Source: Halorussus sp. MSC15.2
GTDB taxonomy: Archaea > Halobacteriota > Halobacteria > Halobacteriales > Haladaptataceae
Direction of reading: 5' to 3'
NCBI RefSeq assembly: GCF_010747475.1
Contig: NZ_VSLZ01000005.1
Location: forward strand, 186,001-250,000
DNA length: 64,000 nucleotides
Shown here: positions 37,163 through 46,676 of the stretch, in pieces
How positions within the stretch are numbered: position 1 is the stretch's first letter
Layout: each line of letters starts with the position of its first letter
Program-made: the position numbers and the translations under genes
Notes under the pieces: generated by a model
Database searches by the model: none
Told to the model about the DNA's origin: nothing
The model's input: the letters and a program-made list of their open reading frames with translations, nothing else

Positions 37163-37319
37163 GTTTTGTTGTACGGTATCAATTGGCATAGTTCCTTGGT
37201 AGGAGTGGGGCCACCGCTTTTTGACTTCGGTTATACTACCGACTCTGCGGCGAAATTCTGTCTGTCAGGCATAATTATTAGATAGTAAATAAATTGTCAG
37301 TGTGCGAGAAAAACAGCCC

Positions 37320-38243
37320 ATGGGTATAATTGAAACCACTTCGCTGACAAAACGCTATGGCGATGTAACCGCCATCGAGGACCTCCATCTTACGGTGAGG
37401 AAAGGCGAAGCGTTCGGATTCCTTGGTCCAAACGGCGCAGGCAAATCCACCACTATCAACATCCTTCTCGGATTTCTCGAGCCGTCGAGCGGGAGTGCGT
37501 GCGTGTTGGGCCACGACGTGCAGACCGAATCGAAAGCATTGCGTCGGCGTATCGGAGTAGTTCCGGAGGGCACGAGCGTCTACGAACAACTGACGGGACG
37601 AAAGCACGTCGAGTTAGCGACCCGGATGAAGAACTGCGACGACGACCCCGAGGACCGCCTGCGCTACGTCGGACTCGACCCCGAGGACTGGGACCGGAGA
37701 GCGGGGGACTACTCGAAAGGGATGCGCCAGCGACTCTCACTGGCGATGGGGCTGGTGGGAAATCCCGACCTCCTAATTCTGGACGAACCGACGTCAGGTC
37801 TCGACCCGAACGGGATGCAGGACGTGCGTGATATTATACGCGAGCAAACAGACGCTGGGCGGACAGTGTTTATGTCGAGTCATCTCCTCGCAGAAGTCGA
37901 GTCTGTCTGCAAGCGGGTCGGCATCATGAACGATGGCGAGTTGGTAACTGTAGACGAGGTAGACCGACTCCGTGAGACGGCAGTCGGCGACGCGGACGTG
38001 AAACTCAGCGTCGAAGCGGTTCCCGACGAACTCGACTTGACCGCAATAGAAGGAGTGACCGACGTGACGATAGCGGATTCGACGATTCGCGTGGCCTGCT
38101 CGAAGCGCGACACGAAAATGGCCGTCATCAGACACGTAGATCAGATAGCGACCGTAACCGACGTCGTTGCGGAGGACATCTCGCTCGAAGCCGTCTTCGA
38201 GACTTACACCGAGGACAGACGGATAGTGGAGGAATCGGCATGA
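37320..38243 (+). CDS. ABC transporter ATP-binding protein, island pair 1
   Basis: 307 residues from the ATG at 37320; a GTG at 37302 is also in frame. Walker A GPNGAGKST, signature YSKGMRQRLSLAMGL, Walker B LLILDEPTSGLDPNG and H-loop SSHLLAEVESVCKRVG mark an ABC-2/NatA-DrrA-type exporter ATPase, followed by the C-terminal domain usual in this type. It overlaps its permease by 4 nt. The preceding 60 bp are AT-rich with TATA-like TTATTAGATAG. It is closely related to the ATPase at 39293-40222. The cargo is unknown; the island's cysteine-rich peptides are candidates. Confidence 0.9.
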   Translation: MGIIETTSLTKRYGDVTAIEDLHLTVRKGEAFGFLGPNGAGKSTTINILLGFLEPSSGSACVLGHDVQTESKALRRRIGVVPEGTSVYEQLTGRKHVELATRMKNCDDDPEDRLRYVGLDPEDWDRRAGDYSKGMRQRLSLAMGLVGNPDLLILDEPTSGLDPNGMQDVRDIIREQTDAGRTVFMSSHLLAEVESVCKRVGIMNDGELVTVDEVDRLRETAVGDADVKLSVEAVPDELDLTAIEGVTDVTIADSTIRVACSKRDTKMAVIRHVDQIATVTDVVAEDISLEAVFETYTEDRRIVEESA

Positions 38244-39073
38244 GTATCAGTGACGTCGTCCGAACGGACCTGAGCGTCCTCAGGCGTTCGAAGCTCTCAT
38301 GGGCGGTCCTCACTGTTCTCCTGTTCTCTACTGCGGGGGCGTTCTATCGGTCGATAAATCGAACACCGGTCGGGACGGCCGAGAAGGGCATCACCGCAAT
38401 CGCGTACGGTGCGATGATTGTGATTCCAATCACGGCCCTCGTTGCTTCTGCGTTCGCTATCGCTGCGGAGCGCGAGAACGGAACGATACGGTTCCTCCTC
38501 GGCTTCCCGAACGAACGAGTCGAGGTCGTTCTCGGAAAAGTTCTGTCTCGGGCTATCCTCGTCAACGGCGGACTCGCGCTCGGATTTCTCGCTGTCGCAC
38601 TATTAGCGGTCGTCGGGGCTGACAGACCCCGACTTATCACGGTCGGCCAGTTCGCACTCTTGACGATGTTGTTCGCCACCTCCTACGTCGGTCTCGCGGT
38701 GGGAATCTCCGCCGGAGTAACGACCCAGATACGCGCAATCGGGGGGACTATAGTGGCGTACCTCTTTTGGAGCATCTTCTGGCTTCCCGGTTTCCCCTAC
38801 TCGGTCGCGGTGTACGTAGAGAATCTTTTAGCAAAGATAGTCGGACACGAACTCGGTCGGACGACCGTCGTACACATCGAGGTTCTCAATCCACCGACGG
38901 CCTACATGCAGACGGTACAGGTTTTGGGACCGTCGTTCGAGGAGTTCTCGAGGGGGTCATCGATGGCGAGCGCACTCGTCGAGCCGAGCGTCGCCATCGG
39001 GTCGCTCGTGGCGTGGACCGTCCTGCCGCTCGCGTTCGGCTACTGGCGGTTCAGAGCCGCCGAGATAAACTAA
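38240..39073 (+). CDS. ABC-2-type permease, island pair 1
   Basis: 277 residues with six hydrophobic segments (about 21-36, 54-75, 106-129, 138-160, 172-188 and 253-270). Signature region AIAAERENGTIRFLLGFPNERVEVVLGK is the ABC-2 amphipathic segment. It overlaps the ATPase gene by 4 nt and should form an exporter with it. The paralogue at 40219-41040 has the same layout (AKEREQGNIRFLLSFPNDRR). A copy of the lpdA 3' end begins 15 nt after its stop. Confidence 0.88.
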   Translation: MSISDVVRTDLSVLRRSKLSWAVLTVLLFSTAGAFYRSINRTPVGTAEKGITAIAYGAMIVIPITALVASAFAIAAERENGTIRFLLGFPNERVEVVLGKVLSRAILVNGGLALGFLAVALLAVVGADRPRLITVGQFALLTMLFATSYVGLAVGISAGVTTQIRAIGGTIVAYLFWSIFWLPGFPYSVAVYVENLLAKIVGHELGRTTVVHIEVLNPPTAYMQTVQVLGPSFEEFSRGSSMASALVEPSVAIGSLVAWTVLPLAFGYWRFRAAEIN

Positions 39074-39087
39074 ATAGGAATTTTCGG

Positions 39088-39123
39088 TTATCGATTCAGC
39101 GTGTGAATCGCGTGCCCGAGTGC
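39088..39123 (-). pseudogene. Fragment of the lpdA 3' end, 11 codons plus stop
   Basis: On the minus strand this reads ALGHAIHTLNR followed by TAA, exactly the C-terminus of the intact LpdA at 44654. A 26-bp core (39095-39120) is identical to 41965-41990 and 44661-44686. The flanking differences (GCA/GCG, AAT/AAC, CGA/CGC) are synonymous. Sequence beyond 39124 is unrelated to lpdA. This is the third lpdA end in the island. Confidence 0.7.
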
Positions 39124-39292: not shown

Positions 39293-40222
39293 ATGGCTGC
39301 TATCGAGACTTCGGGCTTGACGAAACACTACGGCGATATCGTCGCCGTCGATGATTTAGATTTGGTCGTTGAAGAAGGTGAAGCATTTGGATTTCTTGGT
39401 CCGAACGGGGCCGGTAAGTCAACGACTATTGATTTGCTTCTGGGTTTTCTGACACCGACTCGTGGGAACGCGGAGATACTAGGCCACGACGTAGAATCAG
39501 AATCAAAGACAGTTCGAGAGCAACTCGGTGTCCTTCCCGAAGGAGCCAGCACCTACAGTAATCTAACAGGAATAGAACACGTGGATTTAGCAATTGAGAT
39601 GAAAGGCGGTGCTGACGAGACTGAAGAGTTGTTGGAGTACGTCGGACTATCACCGGAAGATTGGGACCGTCCCGTCGGTGGCTACTCGAAAGGGATGCGC
39701 CAACGTCTCGCACTCGGGATGGCACTGGTCGGCGACCCCGAGATGCTACTTCTCGACGAACCATCCAGTGGACTGGACCCTTCCGGGATACGTGATATTC
39801 GGAATATCATCGAGGATCAGGTCGACGCGGGACGAACTGTTTTTTTCTCCAGCCACATTCTTTCGGAAGTAGAGTCTGTCTGTGAACGGGTTGGAATTAT
39901 GCGGGACGGGACGCTCGTCACTGTAGACGAGGTCGAAAAACTTCGTGCGGCAACTGTCGGCGATGCGGAAATCAAACTCCGTGTTGAGACTGTTCCTAAC
40001 CGCCTCAATCTCTCGAATATCGATAACGTGAGTGACGTGAGGACGAAGAACGATACGATTCGTGCGACCTGTTCGACGCCGTCCGCGAAAATCAGCGTGA
40101 TTAATCAGGTGGACGAAGAAGTGGAAATTACAGATGTCGTAGCTGAGGATACTTCTCTCGAAACAGTGTTCAATACGTACGTGCAGAACGGCCGGTCGGA
40201 AGCAACGGGGGACTCGCCATGA
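39293..40222 (+). CDS. ABC transporter ATP-binding protein, island pair 2
   Basis: 309 residues. Walker A GPNGAGKST, signature YSKGMRQRLALGMAL, Walker B MLLLDEPSSGLDPSG and H-loop SSHILSEVESVCERVG. It is similar throughout to the ATPase at 37320-38243, including the C-terminal domain (TVDEVEKLRAATVGDAEIKL vs TVDEVDRLRETAVGDADVKL). Codons are more AT-rich than in pair 1. A TATA-like CTTAAGATAATAAT precedes the ATG by about 20-33 nt. It overlaps its permease by 4 nt. Confidence 0.9.
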   Translation: MAAIETSGLTKHYGDIVAVDDLDLVVEEGEAFGFLGPNGAGKSTTIDLLLGFLTPTRGNAEILGHDVESESKTVREQLGVLPEGASTYSNLTGIEHVDLAIEMKGGADETEELLEYVGLSPEDWDRPVGGYSKGMRQRLALGMALVGDPEMLLLDEPSSGLDPSGIRDIRNIIEDQVDAGRTVFFSSHILSEVESVCERVGIMRDGTLVTVDEVEKLRAATVGDAEIKLRVETVPNRLNLSNIDNVSDVRTKNDTIRATCSTPSAKISVINQVDEEVEITDVVAEDTSLETVFNTYVQNGRSEATGDSP

Positions 40223-41040
40223 GCGTCAGGTTAATCCTCCGGCAAGACCTGCTGGCGCTACGTCGAACGAAACTAGTGTGGGCAGTACTACTCTTCTGTC
40301 CGTTACTCGTATTTGGAGGATTTTATGCAGTGGTTAGTAACCAAACAGGTACTAATCAAACGGTTCTTCTCGGCCTTCTCGGAATAGTTTTCCCGATACT
40401 GGTGTTCGTCCCGATGCTCTCGTTGGTGGTCTCGGCCTTCTCGATAGCGAAAGAACGGGAACAGGGAAACATCCGGTTTTTACTTTCGTTTCCCAACGAC
40501 CGACGGGAGGTCGTCCTCGGGAAATTTTGTTCTCGAAGTTTGCTGACCGCCGGCGGTTTACTGGTAGGGTTCGTTCTGGCTACGCTACTTTCCGTATTCC
40601 TTACTGGTACTCTGAATATCGGGATGTTCCTGACCTTCTCGGTGTTGACGCTTCTCCTTATGACGTCCTACGTTAGTATCGCTACCGGTATTTCCGCCAC
40701 TGTGACTACCCAGTCGCGTGCGATAGTCGCATCGATAGGAGCGTACCTCGTCTGGAACGTCTTCTGGATTCCCGCTGTCCCGAACTCGATTCCGTCACTT
40801 CTAGAGCAACATTTCGGTCTTTCCAATTCTTCACTGATACTCTTAAGGATGGGTAGCCCATCGAACGCGTACCTTCAGTCGATACAGTACGTCTCTCCGA
40901 GAACTGAGAAGTTAGTAGAAACTATGTCGGCGGGGTCTGAATTGGGCTCTCCGTTGGTCGCGGTAAGTATGCTCATCGTCTGGTCCGTGCTTCCACTCGT
41001 ACTGGGATATTGGCAGTTCCAGAAGGCAGACATATCCTAA
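40219..41040 (+). CDS. ABC-2-type permease, island pair 2
   Basis: 273 residues with six hydrophobic segments, with the conserved AKEREQGNIRFLLSFPNDRR segment after segment 2. It is the same architecture as the permease at 38240-39073. It overlaps its ATPase gene by 4 nt and is followed 178 nt later by the 16-Cys precursor on the same strand, which may be its export substrate or the target of its immunity function (inference). Confidence 0.88.
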   Translation: MSVRLILRQDLLALRRTKLVWAVLLFCPLLVFGGFYAVVSNQTGTNQTVLLGLLGIVFPILVFVPMLSLVVSAFSIAKEREQGNIRFLLSFPNDRREVVLGKFCSRSLLTAGGLLVGFVLATLLSVFLTGTLNIGMFLTFSVLTLLLMTSYVSIATGISATVTTQSRAIVASIGAYLVWNVFWIPAVPNSIPSLLEQHFGLSNSSLILLRMGSPSNAYLQSIQYVSPRTEKLVETMSAGSELGSPLVAVSMLIVWSVLPLVLGYWQFQKADIS

Positions 41041-41218: not shown

Positions 41219-41848
41219 TTGGATCGACGCCAGATGCTAAAAGAATCTGCCGCCGGCGCGCTCGTCGCGTTTGGGGGTACGACTGCCGCTAGTGCCAAAC
41301 AGGACGTTGGACTCACGAAAACCGAAGAGGAGGCCGTCATCGAGGAGTACAAAGACGCGGCAATGGTTCGAGAAGCAGTGCACGAGCAAACGGACCTACT
41401 GAAGGAACTCGAAGCAGATGGTGTTCTCGACGAACAGACCATCGACGATCTCGAGGAACTGAGCGAACCCTCCGACAACGTCGGGGAGCACGTGACCGCC
41501 TACCGACACGGCTACCGGCACACGCCACGAATCAAGATTTTCCGTCGCGTAGACGCCGGATTCCTGTCGCTCTCCGTCTTCCCGGAGGAGGACACCGCTC
41601 ACGCTACGCTGAACCCCGTCGAAAATGGTGAGCCGCTCGGTAAGGACCACCTCGTGAAATACGGAAGTATGCCGGAACCAGACCCGGACGGATGTGTCGA
41701 TCCGGGGCACTGTCAGGATTGTTCCGATTGTTCCGAAGAGTGTTGTGCGCGGGACCCTCAGGGCGACTGTACCCAGTGGTGTACTCAGTGTGACTGCGAT
41801 TGTGTCTGCTGTGACTGTGGTGTCCTCTGTAGTAGCTACTGCGCATAA
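41219..41848 (+). CDS. Tat-exported precursor with a 16-cysteine C-terminal tail
   Basis: 209 residues. TTG start at 41219 is chosen because it gives the twin-arginine signal MDRRQMLKESAAGALVAFGG; no ATG upstream keeps the frame. A signal cleavage site near AASA/KQ is likely. Residues 30-155 are acidic and helical/beta with no cysteine. From residue 159 the tail holds 16 Cys in 51 residues, including EECC, CDCDCVCCDC and CSSYC. The layout (Tat signal, propeptide, Cys-rich end) is that of halocin C8-type preproproteins, but the Cys spacing is denser, so metal binding is the alternative. It stands alone downstream of ABC pair 2. Confidence 0.75.
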   Translation: MDRRQMLKESAAGALVAFGGTTAASAKQDVGLTKTEEEAVIEEYKDAAMVREAVHEQTDLLKELEADGVLDEQTIDDLEELSEPSDNVGEHVTAYRHGYRHTPRIKIFRRVDAGFLSLSVFPEEDTAHATLNPVENGEPLGKDHLVKYGSMPEPDPDGCVDPGHCQDCSDCSEECCARDPQGDCTQWCTQCDCDCVCCDCGVLCSSYCA

Positions 41849-41957: not shown

Positions 41958-42243
41958 CTAACGGTTCAGCGTGTGAATCGCGTGCCCGAGCGCGTTTTCG
42001 GCGGCCTCCATCACGGCCTCCGAGAGCGTCGGGTGGGTGTGAATCGTCGCGGCCACATCCTCCAGCGTCGCGCCCATCTCGATAGCCAGACCGAGTTCGG
42101 CAATCAGTTCGAAGGCCTCCGGTCCCACAATCTGCGCGCCGAGCAGGAAGCCGCTGGGTTCGTCCGCGACGATGCGGACGAAGCCGTCGGCGTGGCCGGT
42201 GGAGTAGGTCCCCTCCGGACCGAGCGTGACTGCTTCTATACGT
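41958..42243 (-). pseudogene. Chimeric remnant: first 13 codons of pheA fused in frame to the last 80 codons of lpdA
   Basis: On the minus strand, 42239-42201 encodes IEAVTLGPEGTYS, the PheA N-terminus with its ATG changed to ATA. At 42200 it passes in frame to TGHADGFVRIVADEPSGF... and ends ALGHAIHTLNR with TAG at 41958-41960. The lpdA part (41961-42200) matches 44657-44896 with about 18 differences in 240 nt, all synonymous except V-to-I and S-to-F. The pheA part matches 36735-36773 at 35 of 39 positions and continues into the pheA upstream DNA to about 42288. With no start codon it is probably not translated. Confidence 0.8.
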
Positions 42244-42387
42244 TTTCTGTTTCGCGGAGGGGTGAAAAGAGCAGTGGCTGTGACAGAACTTTAGCAAGGG
42301 ATAAAGTGATTTGAACCACGCTGCCGGAATTCTCCTGTACGAATAGAAATAGTAGTATGTTCTACACGCACCCATCTAATAGTTAGG

Positions 42388-42420: not shown

Positions 42421-43266
42421 ATGGAAGACGAAAATCAGTCAAAGAGAGAAGAGTCAAAGAACAAAGCGTCAATCACCCGACGAGGAGTCCTTGGGGTATT
42501 AGGTGCAACCGCTGGTGCAACCGTTAGCTCAGGATTTACTAAACCGGTTTCTGCAGACTCTGTAGATATAACCGATCTCCGGGGTTCAGTAAGAACGCTG
42601 TTTGAAGAAGTGGGAGAACCAGCAATCGTTAACCAAAATGTGAATGTTTATCATGGTGATTTTACCCTGAAGGTTATTCGATTCGAAACCAAAGTCGGTG
42701 CCATCACTCACCGAGAGGTTCTTAATTCGAAAGTTGAAAAGTTCGATCGGGGGGACACGTCCACAGGATTCGAACTAAAGGACCTTACTGAAGAGATTCA
42801 GCGAAAGCTCCCCACTCGGTTCAATAGCGTCCCCATAGGAGTTGAACTCCACATGAAGGTGGAAAATAATGGAATGAGTCTCAGCACTACCGTAACTGAG
42901 AAAGAACAGGAACAACTGTCAAATTTTGTCGATACTGGTGAATTTATTGCACGACACACTGATGGCTCCTACTTCATCAGGACTGCGGACGGCAATGTGT
43001 TCAAAGTTTCTAGTGAGACAGATCGGCCAAACATAAGACAACCTTCGGTCGAAGAAGTCGCAAGCGAGCAAATTAACGCAGATGCATGCTTCGATTGTGG
43101 TACTAATGCTCCCGAATGTGCTAGTAATTGTTTCAATGCTTGTGCCTTTGTCATTGGAAATGGCGATCCCCTGCATTGCGGTGAATGTATTGCCCAACAC
43201 TGCGTGGGTTTAGACGTAAAAGCCTGCGCAAAATGCATCGCTAGCCTGCCAGAATCTATTCGATAA
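42421..43266 (+). CDS. Halocin C8-like Tat-exported preproprotein
   Basis: 281 residues. The Tat signal is SITRRGVLGVLGATAGATVS (17-36). Residues 47-220 form a soluble pro-domain (FEEVGEPAIVNQNVNVYHGD, VELHMKVENNGMSLSTTVTE) without Cys. The last 59 residues carry ten cysteines at 223, 226, 233, 237, 241, 253, 256, 261, 269 and 272. Halocin C8, a haloarchaeal antimicrobial peptide with ten cysteines, is cut from the C-terminus of a similar preproprotein whose N-terminal part gives immunity (known for that system). Antimicrobial function here is inferred. Codons are notably AT-rich, unlike core genes. Its 3' end overlaps the convergent LolA-like gene by 11 nt. Confidence 0.75.
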   Translation: MEDENQSKREESKNKASITRRGVLGVLGATAGATVSSGFTKPVSADSVDITDLRGSVRTLFEEVGEPAIVNQNVNVYHGDFTLKVIRFETKVGAITHREVLNSKVEKFDRGDTSTGFELKDLTEEIQRKLPTRFNSVPIGVELHMKVENNGMSLSTTVTEKEQEQLSNFVDTGEFIARHTDGSYFIRTADGNVFKVSSETDRPNIRQPSVEEVASEQINADACFDCGTNAPECASNCFNACAFVIGNGDPLHCGECIAQHCVGLDVKACAKCIASLPESIR

Positions 43267-44002
43267 ACGGTTTTCTACGTACCTCTTTTGCGTTTTCGGG
43301 AGGAGTAAACTTGAAGAGAGAGCAATCAATCTCGATGTTAAATTCAACCTCCTCAAACGTTTTCATGAGGAAGTACACCCCGTCCGGAACATCCCCGAGT
43401 GAATCTGTCTGCAACAGTGGCATCTCTTGGATGTTGGCCCGTGCCTCCTCCTTGATGGGGAACCAGTATTCGTCGTCTATCCACAGAGTTATGTACTCGT
43501 ATCCTCGGTAGAGGGAATCCGCGTCCGCTGTCGGTCGAAACGACAGGACGTGTGTCTCTCGACCTGCGACGGTCTCCCTCCCATCGTACGTCACGTCGAA
43601 GTTCGATTTGGGAGAGGACCCAATTAACGTCGCGTCCGTGTTGGGATTAGGTCGACCCTCGGCCGGGTCGAAATCGAGACTGTGATACTTTTTCGCTTCA
43701 CGGTCATACAGTATCACTCCATCTCGATTCTGTATCATGAGATCTACGCCCTCGAATTCAGGCGTCGGGTCGTGCGTGACGCCAAGGTCGAAATCGAACT
43801 CGTCGACGGTTTCCACGGACAGTTGTTCGTTGCGAGTTCTGTTCGGAAGATCCTCCCACAGTTCAAGTCGGACCGTTCTCAGGCCGCCACCGTATTTTTC
43901 GGTTTTTCGTTTCGTCCCGTGAATGGTGTCCGGCAAATTGTCCGTGGCCTGGAGTTCGTCGAGGATTTCCTCGACTGAAGGCGTATCCTCATTCGTGGTC
44001 AT
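43256..44002 (-). CDS. LolA/LppX-like protein without signal peptide
   Basis: 248 residues from the ATG at 44002; a GTG at 44011 is the alternative. It has the beta-rich LolA-like pattern: RTVRLELWEDLPNRTRNEQL, DLMIQNRDGVILYDREAKKY, ETVAGRETHVLSFRP, YITLWIDDEYWFPIKEEA and a final EIDCSLFKFTPPENAKEVRR. Most haloarchaeal members are exported lipoproteins; this one starts with acidic TTNEDTPSVEEILDELQATD and has no signal, so it should stay in the cytosol. It is convergent with the halocin-like gene and overlaps it, suggesting linked function (immunity or maturation), which is inference. TATA-like TTTATATA at 44039-44046 on the minus strand. Confidence 0.7.
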   Translation of the reverse strand: MTTNEDTPSVEEILDELQATDNLPDTIHGTKRKTEKYGGGLRTVRLELWEDLPNRTRNEQLSVETVDEFDFDLGVTHDPTPEFEGVDLMIQNRDGVILYDREAKKYHSLDFDPAEGRPNPNTDATLIGSSPKSNFDVTYDGRETVAGRETHVLSFRPTADADSLYRGYEYITLWIDDEYWFPIKEEARANIQEMPLLQTDSLGDVPDGVYFLMKTFEEVEFNIEIDCSLFKFTPPENAKEVRRKPFIE

Positions 44003-44085
44003 GGCTTCCACATCGTCCTACAGTTAAGTAGATACACATATATAAAACGCGGTCGAGATGTGTCGGGGCTACCGCTATCGGTTCA

Positions 44086-44259: not shown

Positions 44260-44312
44260 TTAGAAACCTATAGGTGTCTTTAGAGGAGCAATCCCGCGAA
44301 GGAGACGGTTGA

Positions 44313-44420
44313 TTACTCCAGTTCGCCCGACTCCCCGTCGTCCATCGACTCGGTGGCCTCGAGGCCGGAGAACGCACCGCTGGCGACCGCGGCGTCGAAC
44401 TCGTGGGGCGGTCCGCCGAG
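44313..44420 (-). pseudogene. C-terminal fragment of an unidentified protein
   Basis: Minus-strand reading gives LGGPPHEFDAAVASGAFSG, then LEATESMDDGESGELE and a TAA at 44313-44315. Haloarchaeal codon use and acidic ending look like a genuine C-terminus; AAVASGAFSGLEATES resembles the last helix of FAD-dependent amine-oxidase-like proteins, but this is a weak resemblance. It stops abruptly where the livF remnant begins. Confidence 0.45.
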
Positions 44421-44578
44421 ACGGGACTGTGGTGCTGATGGTCGGGCAGAACGTCAAGGCCGGACTCCGCATCGCCGACCGAGGCTACGTCCTCGACGTG
44501 GGTGAGAACCGCCACGAGGAATCGGTAAACGAATTCCTCGACAGCGAAAGGGTTCGAGACGCCTACCTCGGGAAGTGA
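44420..44578 (+). pseudogene. C-terminal fragment of a branched-chain amino acid ABC ATPase (LivF-like)
   Basis: The frame reads DGTVVLMVGQNVKAGLRIAD, then RGYVLDVGENRHEESVNEFL and ends ERVRDAYLGK. That is the end of LivF: H-loop region VEQN (here VGQN), IADRGYVLD and the terminal YLGK. All upstream domains (Walker A, signature, Walker B) are missing; the open frame before 44420 is unrelated Arg-rich sequence. Confidence 0.7.
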
Positions 44579-44653: not shown

Positions 44654-46078
44654 TCAGCGGTTCAGCGTGTGAATCGCGTGCCCGAGCGCGTTCTCGGCGG
44701 CCTCCATCACGGCCTCCGAGAGCGTCGGGTGGGTGTGAATCGTCGCCGCGACGTCCTCCAGCGTCGCGCCCATCTCAATGGCGAGTCCGAGTTCCGCGAC
44801 GAGTTCGGAGGCCTCCGGTCCCACAATCTGCGCGCCGAGCAGGAAACCACTGGGTTCGTCCGCGACGATGCGGACGAAGCCGTCGGCGTGGCCCGTCGTG
44901 AGCGCGCGGCCCGACGCGTTGAACGGGAACTTGCCGACGGTGGGTTCGAAGCCCTCCTCCTCGGCCTCCGCTTCGGTCATGCCGACCGTGCCGATTTCGG
45001 GGTCGGTGAACACCGCGGCGGGGACCGCCTGATAGTCCAGCGCCGAGGGTTCGCCCGCGACGACCTCCGCGGCGACCTGCCCCTCCTTGCTGGCCACGTG
45101 CGCGAGCATCGGCTCGCCGGACACGTCACCGATGGCGTGGATGTGCTCGACGTTCGTCCGCGCACGGTCGTCGGTCGGGATGAAACCGTTCTCGTCGGTC
45201 TCGACGCCCGCGTTGTCGAGTTCGAGCGTGTCGGTGACGGGTTCGCGGCCGACCGCGACCAGCACCTTCTCCGCGCCGAACTCCGAGACCTCGCCGTCCT
45301 CGTCCTCGGTCCGGACGGTGATGCCGTCGCCCGACTCCTCCCACCCGCTGGCGGCCTCGCCGAAGTGGAAGTCGATGCCCAGTTCCTCCGCCTTCTTCTT
45401 GACGGGGCGCGCGAGGTCGTCCTCGTAGCCCGGAAGGACCGAGTCGAGCATCTCGACTATCGTCACGTCGGTACCCAACTTGGCGAAGACGCCCGCGAGT
45501 TCCATGCCGATGTAGCCCGCGCCGACGATGACGAGGCTCTCGGGCACCTCCTCCAGTGCGAGCGCCTGCCGGGAGTCGAGTACGGGGTCGTCGCCGAAGT
45601 CGAAGCCGGGCACTTCGATGGGGCGACTTCCAGTCGAAACGATGGCGTGTTCGAACTTGACCGTCTCGGAACCCTGCCCGCCGCCGCTGTGGACGACGCG
45701 GGCCTTGTTCTCGTCGGCGAACTCCGCGCGGCCCTCCATCAGTTCGACGCCGTTGGCCTTGGCGAGTTTCTCGACGCCGCCCGTGAGTTGGTCCACGACG
45801 CCGTCCTTCCAGCCGACCATCTCGCTCATCTCCACCTCGGGGTCGGCGTAGATGCCCATTTCCTCGGCGTGGCCTGCCTCGTGGGCGAGGTCCGACGCCG
45901 TAATCATCGCCTTCGAGGGGATGCAACCGTAGTTGAGGCAGGTCCCGCCGTAGGCGTCCTTCTCCACGAGGGTCACGTCGAGGTCCAACTGGCCCGCGCG
46001 AATCGCGGCGACGTAGCCGCCCGGTCCCGCGCCGATTACCAACACGTCCGTTCCCGTCGAGATGTCTCCGACGACCAT
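44654..46078 (-). CDS. lpdA: Dihydrolipoamide dehydrogenase (E3)
   Basis: 474 residues from the ATG at 46078 (MVVGDISTGTDVLVIGAGPG). FAD enzyme that reoxidises dihydrolipoyl groups of E2 with NAD+. The redox disulfide is GGTCLNYGCIPSK, the FAD site GAGPGGYVAA, the NAD site IVGAGYIGMELAGVFAKLG, FAD-ribityl HAIGDVSGEPMLAH, and the C-terminal dimer interface HTHPTLSEAVMEAA with the active-site His. Its last codons recur at 39088 and 41958. It is in the same direction as the E1/E2 genes but 3.4 kb downstream of E2. Confidence 0.96.
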   Translation of the reverse strand: MVVGDISTGTDVLVIGAGPGGYVAAIRAGQLDLDVTLVEKDAYGGTCLNYGCIPSKAMITASDLAHEAGHAEEMGIYADPEVEMSEMVGWKDGVVDQLTGGVEKLAKANGVELMEGRAEFADENKARVVHSGGGQGSETVKFEHAIVSTGSRPIEVPGFDFGDDPVLDSRQALALEEVPESLVIVGAGYIGMELAGVFAKLGTDVTIVEMLDSVLPGYEDDLARPVKKKAEELGIDFHFGEAASGWEESGDGITVRTEDEDGEVSEFGAEKVLVAVGREPVTDTLELDNAGVETDENGFIPTDDRARTNVEHIHAIGDVSGEPMLAHVASKEGQVAAEVVAGEPSALDYQAVPAAVFTDPEIGTVGMTEAEAEEEGFEPTVGKFPFNASGRALTTGHADGFVRIVADEPSGFLLGAQIVGPEASELVAELGLAIEMGATLEDVAATIHTHPTLSEAVMEAAENALGHAIHTLNR

Positions 46079-46148
46079 ATGTTCGGTAAATCGGGCTTGG
46101 TGGTGAAAAATCAGGTGGATTTTGCGGCGAGATTGGATTGGTAACGTT

Positions 46149-46676
46149 TCACGCGGGGTCGTCGGGGAGGGCGTCGGCGACGCTTTCGACCGGCGCGTAG
46201 TAGCCGCGCTGGTCGCGCCAGACGTCGAGCCACTCGTCCGCGGTTTCGACGGACAGTTCGTTTCTGACGACACCGTTAACGAGCAAACCGATAGAGCCCG
46301 TTTTCGAGACGCCGAGTTCGTCTGCGAGCCGGCGAGCATCCATGTCGTCGGAGACGAACGTCCCGTCTACGAGTTGAGCCGTCACGAGGACTTCAGTCTC
46401 TCCTCGGTCAAGTCGCTGAAGCTCTTCGGAGAACTCGTGGTGGTCGAGAATACCACGTCCAGGATGAAGGAGGTCTATTTTGTCGCATTGGACGGCAGCG
46501 AGGGCTGAACCGAGAAATGGATAACCCTCGTCGACGCCGCGCTGGAGTTCCTGCTCAACCGCCGCTGCCGTTGCTAATCCGGAGAACGTGTCGGTGAGCC
46601 ATGATATAGCGTCGGAACTAGCGAAGTTACTGAGCACCGTCGCGTCGAGGACGAGCGGCTTCCGCTTCTCTCTCAT
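46149..46676 (-). CDS. PIN-domain toxin-like protein partnered with UPF0175
   Basis: 175 residues. LVLDATVLSNFASSDAISWL supplies the first acidic residue of a PIN nuclease (D11), ELQRGVDEGYP the Glu, and LDRGETEVLVTA plus FVSDDMDARRLADELGV the remaining acidic residues, with GSIGLLVNGV after them. This is the DUF3368-like PIN form that pairs with UPF0175 proteins. The expected role is a ribonuclease toxin. It overlaps the upstream antitoxin gene by 4 nt. Confidence 0.8.
   Translation of the reverse strand: MREKRKPLVLDATVLSNFASSDAISWLTDTFSGLATAAAVEQELQRGVDEGYPFLGSALAAVQCDKIDLLHPGRGILDHHEFSEELQRLDRGETEVLVTAQLVDGTFVSDDMDARRLADELGVSKTGSIGLLVNGVVRNELSVETADEWLDVWRDQRGYYAPVESVADALPDDPA

Follow-up and report, generated by a model that had tools for sequence, protein, structure and literature searches.

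A Tat-type precursor with a ten-cysteine tail beside lpdA in Halorussus and its possible antimicrobial role

As judged by its pro-domain profile and by a tail of 10–12 cysteines with a shared cysteine framework, the preproprotein described here is a member of a family of haloarchaeal precursors that is defined in this work and termed family A. Its gene lies in the window (the whole stretch of 64,000 nucleotides from Halorussus sp. MSC15.2 that was analyzed), in a mobile, AT-rich setting beside lpdA, and is paired with a convergent gene for a LolA-like protein (Table 1). By analogy with halocin C8, the preproprotein is read, with moderate confidence, as the precursor of an antimicrobial peptide that would be secreted, rich in cysteines, and halocin C8-like in its action. 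Family A is unnamed, although a survey of antimicrobials from archaea, published in mBio in 2019, may list it.

Table 1. Features of the pheA–lpdA interval in the window
Feature	Position	Strand	Basis or remark
Second ABC-2 ATPase	37302..38243	+	61% identical to the other ATPase
Second ABC-2 permease	38240..39073	+	model matches
Third copy of the lpdA 3′ end, 35 nt	39089..39123	.	sequence repeat
ABC-2 transporter ATPase	39293..40222	+	pairs of this kind found next to family B genes elsewhere
ABC-2 permease	40219..41040	+	weak MutG-type lantibiotic-immunity similarity
Family B Cys-tail preproprotein, 209 aa, 16 tail Cys	41219..41848	+	TTG start as listed; relatives
Duplicated lpdA 3′ end (~240 nt, 93%) fused to pheA 5′ end (58 nt, 81%)	41959..42258	.	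junction of cargo modules
Preproprotein gene (family A), 281 aa	42421..43266	+	ORF with ATG start; supported by relatives
Tat-type signal peptide, residues 1–46	42421..42558	+	TIGR01409 below threshold; invariant RR
Cys-free pro-domain, residues 47–222, conserved across family A	42559..43086	+	profile link to 28 other members
Ten-Cys tail, residues 223–281, presumed mature peptide	43087..43263	+	Cys count, alignment
LolA-like gene, 248–251 aa, signal-less, candidate immunity protein	43256..44011	-	convergent; weak PF17131 match
lpdA (dihydrolipoyl dehydrogenase), bordering the cargo site	44654..46339	-	TIGR01350; true start probably further in

Anatomy and distribution of family A

The sequence-only reading had described a Tat signal, a cysteine-free pro-domain, and ten cysteines in the final 59 residues, which is borne out by the reading frame and by the relatives. 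All ten cysteines fall between residues 223 and 272, with a spacing of 2,6,3,3,11,2,4,7,2, and residues 1–222 contain none. The Tat signal fits residues 18–45 (SITRRGVLGVLG...VSA-DS), with cleavage likely to occur after VSA. The NCBIfam Tat model TIGR01409 scores 12.6 bits, which is below its cut-off of 16.7, and the RR pair is invariant across 35 relatives. Apart from this subthreshold signal, no fitting family was found in Pfam, NCBIfam, or PHROGs, and an Rfam scan of 36–47 kb gave no match. Two Halorussus orthologs, one of them from Halorussus amylolyticus YC93, are 44% identical to the preproprotein over the full length. Since both have kept ten cysteines, and since more than 30 full-length relatives retain the Tat signal, the pro-domain, and a tail with 10–12 cysteines, the layout is not due to chance.

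Full-length relatives are patchily distributed and were found in 33 of 392 genomes of the same order as the source (profile search, E < 1e-15); weaker profile matches mostly covered the Tat signal only. The model used for this count included the other Cys-tail protein encoded in the window, and family A was then rebuilt without that protein, giving 31 aligned members and 39 genes in the loci examined. The conserved pro-domain comprises about 170 residues. The tails diverge while their cysteine framework stays constant, and many of them are hydrophobic, glycine-rich, and nearly chargeless. Paralogs are often arranged in tandem or present in multiple copies per genome (G241, G388, G260, G355, G020, and the window's own genome). 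One plasmid-borne relative occurs in Halocatena salina. A viral origin of the family was considered and rejected, as there was no PHROGs match and no relative on a viral contig with the patterns used.

Of the 39 family A genes, 15 have a small ORF with two to four transmembrane segments within 400 nt, as do 25 of 137 control genes; bacteriocin immunity proteins are commonly of this type. The comparison is rough because the control genes were ORFs picked by length and acidity. Separately, a membrane protein that carries the motif QPEYTGENRC, or a close variant, is encoded near family A genes in four genomes (L024, L088, L091, and L098); the two of these proteins that were scanned matched no Pfam family above the cut-off.

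Relation to halocin C8

Halocin C8 serves as the standard case among the few halocins whose sequence is known. Its 283-aa precursor ProC8 is exported by the Tat pathway and yields the immunity part HalI and a 76-aa peptide (PMC11509114). The bioactive C-terminal fragment is freed via N-terminal cleavage by an unidentified protease (PMC12893001). Tat export, a cysteine-free pro-domain, a C-terminal ten-cysteine peptide, and a length of about 280 aa are shared by both precursors, and the earlier description as halocin C8-like is therefore upheld for cysteine number and architecture. As had also been noted from the sequence, the order of the cysteine spacings differs (2,7,3,7,13,7,8,8,5 in a halocin C8 tail from L031). 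The tail in the window is less hydrophobic than that of halocin C8, with a GRAVY of 0.38 compared to 0.93.

The description does not extend to family membership, which was rejected. TIGR04449 (halocin_C8_dom, cut-off 24 bits) gave no hit to the preproprotein at E up to 10 and none among 35 members of family A when E up to 1 was allowed (0/9 in a smaller set). The same model, as a positive control, recognizes C8 proteins in 53 of the 392 haloarchaeal genomes, the window's own included. When family A was compared with halocin C8 by hhalign, only the Tat signals aligned (P 96), and neither the pro-domain (HalI, P 0.3) nor the tail (P 0.1) showed detectable similarity. In contrast, in the positive control, the window subgroup is recognizably related to the 28 other family A members in both its pro-domain (P 99, E 5e-18) and its tail (E 1.5e-4). 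These comparisons also argue against a true halocin C8 member that has drifted past recognition by the model. Such drift, which would account for the common layout, the ten cysteines, and the nearly equal first three spacings (2,6,3 and 2,7,3), was already disfavored and is very unlikely. The preproprotein would thus, at most, work like halocin C8. The antimicrobial reading is weakened by the lack of any link to proven halocins in the TIGR04449 scans and profile–profile comparisons, and by the lower GRAVY of the tail.

Genes of both kinds do meet in the same genomes. In G020 and in G122, a true halocin C8-model gene has a family A gene as a neighbor at a distance of no more than about 10 kb. 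On contig C4 of the window's own genome (L106: 6499-7279, minus strand), a halocin C8 domain scores 40.6 bits, with the Tat start and the tail in different frames; as read from these frames, it is a frameshifted or misassembled prohalocin.

The cargo site beside lpdA

The preproprotein gene sits within a low-GC stretch of about 37.0–44.6 kb that reaches from pheA to lpdA. Its GC content is 0.46 in a window of 0.642, and its GC3 is 0.40 compared to 0.86 in lpdA, which confirms the AT-rich codon use noticed earlier, and it forms part of the mobile cargo at this site. lpdA is present in 18/18 Halorussus genomes, with pheA found close by in 16, and the interval between the two varies in content among Halorussus and is unusually long in the window. 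The partial lpdA copies starting at 39089 and 41959 look like those left by repeated recombination or tandem duplication. The site holds a precursor, a remnant, or the LolA-like partner in four Halorussus species. The codon use had been taken as a sign of recent acquisition. By its GC content, the cassette does appear to be foreign in origin, but its recency is doubtful because the same site is occupied in four species and the orthologs are only 44% identical.

The AT-rich composition, the surrounding lpdA and pheA remnants, and a decayed relative in G020 might also be expected if the gene were a non-functional passenger of a decaying island. This is highly improbable, however, given an intact ORF whose pro-domain and cysteine-rich tail are conserved with two orthologs at 44% identity.

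Other gene traces were seen at this site. What appears by eye to be the 3′ remnant of a LivF-type ABC ATPase is found at the lpdA site of both the window (44309-44578, plus strand) and G020 (L021: 8058-8276). Between lpdA and pheA, VapC-like PIN proteins, likewise recognized by eye, are encoded in two other Halorussus genomes (L119: 882-1271 in G025; L121: 975-1325 in G023).

In the window, the site also carries ABC-2 transporters and an unrelated Cys-tail precursor, a member of what is called family B here. This Tat-type protein has 16 cysteines in its last 52 residues. With a limit of E 0.001, relatives were found in 24/362 genomes, other genera included; some matches among them cover the Tat signal only. 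Homology of family B to family A was rejected by profile comparison; an earlier strong score arose from the inclusion of the family B protein in the model. Directly behind two family B genes in G250 come an ABC-2 ATPase and permease, and a family B gene in the window's own genome is divergent from an ABC-2 pair. In G002, a genome from a different genus within the same taxonomic family, two family B genes stand directly behind lpdA (L143: 6772-7404 and 7609-8241). The 3′ side of lpdA would thus seem to take up cargo of this kind in at least two genera. Both ATPase–permease pairs of the window score with models of LanFEG/DrrAB-type lantibiotic immunity transporters, but all scores are below the NCBIfam cut-offs, and the pairs adjoin the family B gene rather than the family A gene.

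The LolA-like partner and the proposed function

Unlike halocin C8, the precursor in the window has a separate LolA-like neighbor, whose gene and the preproprotein gene overlap at their 3′ ends. The protein matches PF17131 (LolA_like) with E 4e-5 and 23.8 bits (gathering cut-off 30), and a close relative in G012 exceeds the DUF2092 cut-off. Its C-terminal LolA-like region is shared with the LolA-like/DUF2092 lipoproteins of haloarchaea (PF17131, PF09865). It differs from them in that it has neither signal peptide nor lipobox, in its length (~240–250 aa compared to mostly 360–450), and in its tie to the Cys-tail gene in the window subgroup. LolA-like relatives elsewhere are mostly lipoprotein-sized or unlinked, and no Cys-tail gene is present within 1.5 kb of the more distant ones in G012 and G091.

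Each intact precursor gene of the window subgroup (3/3) is paired with a convergent LolA-like gene that lacks a signal peptide, at two genomic sites: in the window, at the same site in H. amylolyticus, and at another site in G020, that is, at three intact loci in one genus. Such a partner was rejected as a general feature of family A, since among the loci examined it occurs only with this Halorussus subgroup; elsewhere in family A, a small membrane ORF is often the neighbor instead. At the lpdA site of G020, a LolA-like gene that is 91% identical has stayed open beside a precursor remnant of 44–45 codons, in which one tail cysteine is replaced by arginine. Between the window copy and the G020 copy, dN/dS amounts to 0.41; this value hints mildly at constraint and also covers the time before the precursor was lost. 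G015 carries two LolA-like genes and no precursor at its lpdA site.

The copies without a precursor in G015 and G020 suggest a role in immunity. The pattern would fit an immunity gene that outlasts a lost weapon, with a Tat chaperone as a possible alternative. Provided that the precursor is antimicrobial, the LolA-like protein is given a slightly less than even chance of being the immunity factor. The sequence-only reading had offered the pro-domain as a possible immunity protein, and the LolA-like neighbor is at least as good a candidate.

Alternatively, the tail could belong to a secreted signaling or surface peptide for cell–cell recognition, with the LolA-like protein as a maturation factor. 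Multiple paralogs and fast divergence suit recognition systems as well, and a LolA-like protein that has no signal peptide might act as a Tat chaperone. However, the survival of this gene after the precursor is better explained by immunity than by a chaperone, and small membrane proteins and ABC-2 transporters are typical of immunity, which makes a recognition peptide unlikely.

The CxxC and CxxxC motifs of the tail could also bind metal, which weakens the antimicrobial reading. The protein would then be a Tat-exported metal-binding protein of the copper-storage or metallothionein type with a permanent pro-domain. Many such motifs are present, and the family B tails, with up to 22 cysteines and many acidic residues, look metallothionein-like. 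AlphaFold models of both proteins from two-sequence alignments were uninformative (pLDDT 30 and 37); the low-confidence model shows a helical tail, which would suit metal binding. A metal-binding role is nevertheless improbable. No known enzyme or metal-cluster family was found for the tail, and 0/35 relatives match a metal-binding family in Pfam, NCBIfam, or PDB sequences beyond Tat signals and chance. The almost uncharged tails of many relatives, the patchy, duplicated, and mobile distribution, and the absence of noticed metal genes nearby speak against it as well.

The antimicrobial reading draws on the conserved plan of Tat signal, pro-domain, and Cys tail, on its patchy spread and multiple paralogs, and on tails that diverge around a fixed cysteine framework. 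It is further supported by the family A genes near C8-model genes, by the small membrane ORFs, and by the LolA-like pairing and its persistence without a precursor. The company at the cargo site, with ABC-2 transporters, a second Cys-tail precursor, and PIN-type genes in other Halorussus, points the same way. By analogy, the precursor would fold in the cytoplasm and exit via Tat, after which an extracellular protease would free the C-terminal 59-residue peptide. The mature peptide, presumably held by five disulfides, would inhibit related haloarchaea. The signal-less LolA-like protein would most likely protect the producer, or escort the precursor, by cytoplasmic binding.

A broader conjecture, which we regard as rather doubtful, is that this weapon plan arose in haloarchaea on three or more occasions from unrelated starting sequences (family A, family B, and halocin C8), and that a distinct means of self-protection goes with each. 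In the window subgroup, a protein with the LolA fold would protect by binding the peptide or the precursor in the cytoplasm, a role that this fold is not known to have.

If family A is antimicrobial, about 8% of the sampled haloarchaeal genomes would carry an unrecognized class of Cys-rich peptide precursors, one that is unmatched in Pfam, NCBIfam, and PHROGs. With a separate partner gene and orphan copies of the LolA-like gene at hand, immunity in this class would be directly testable.
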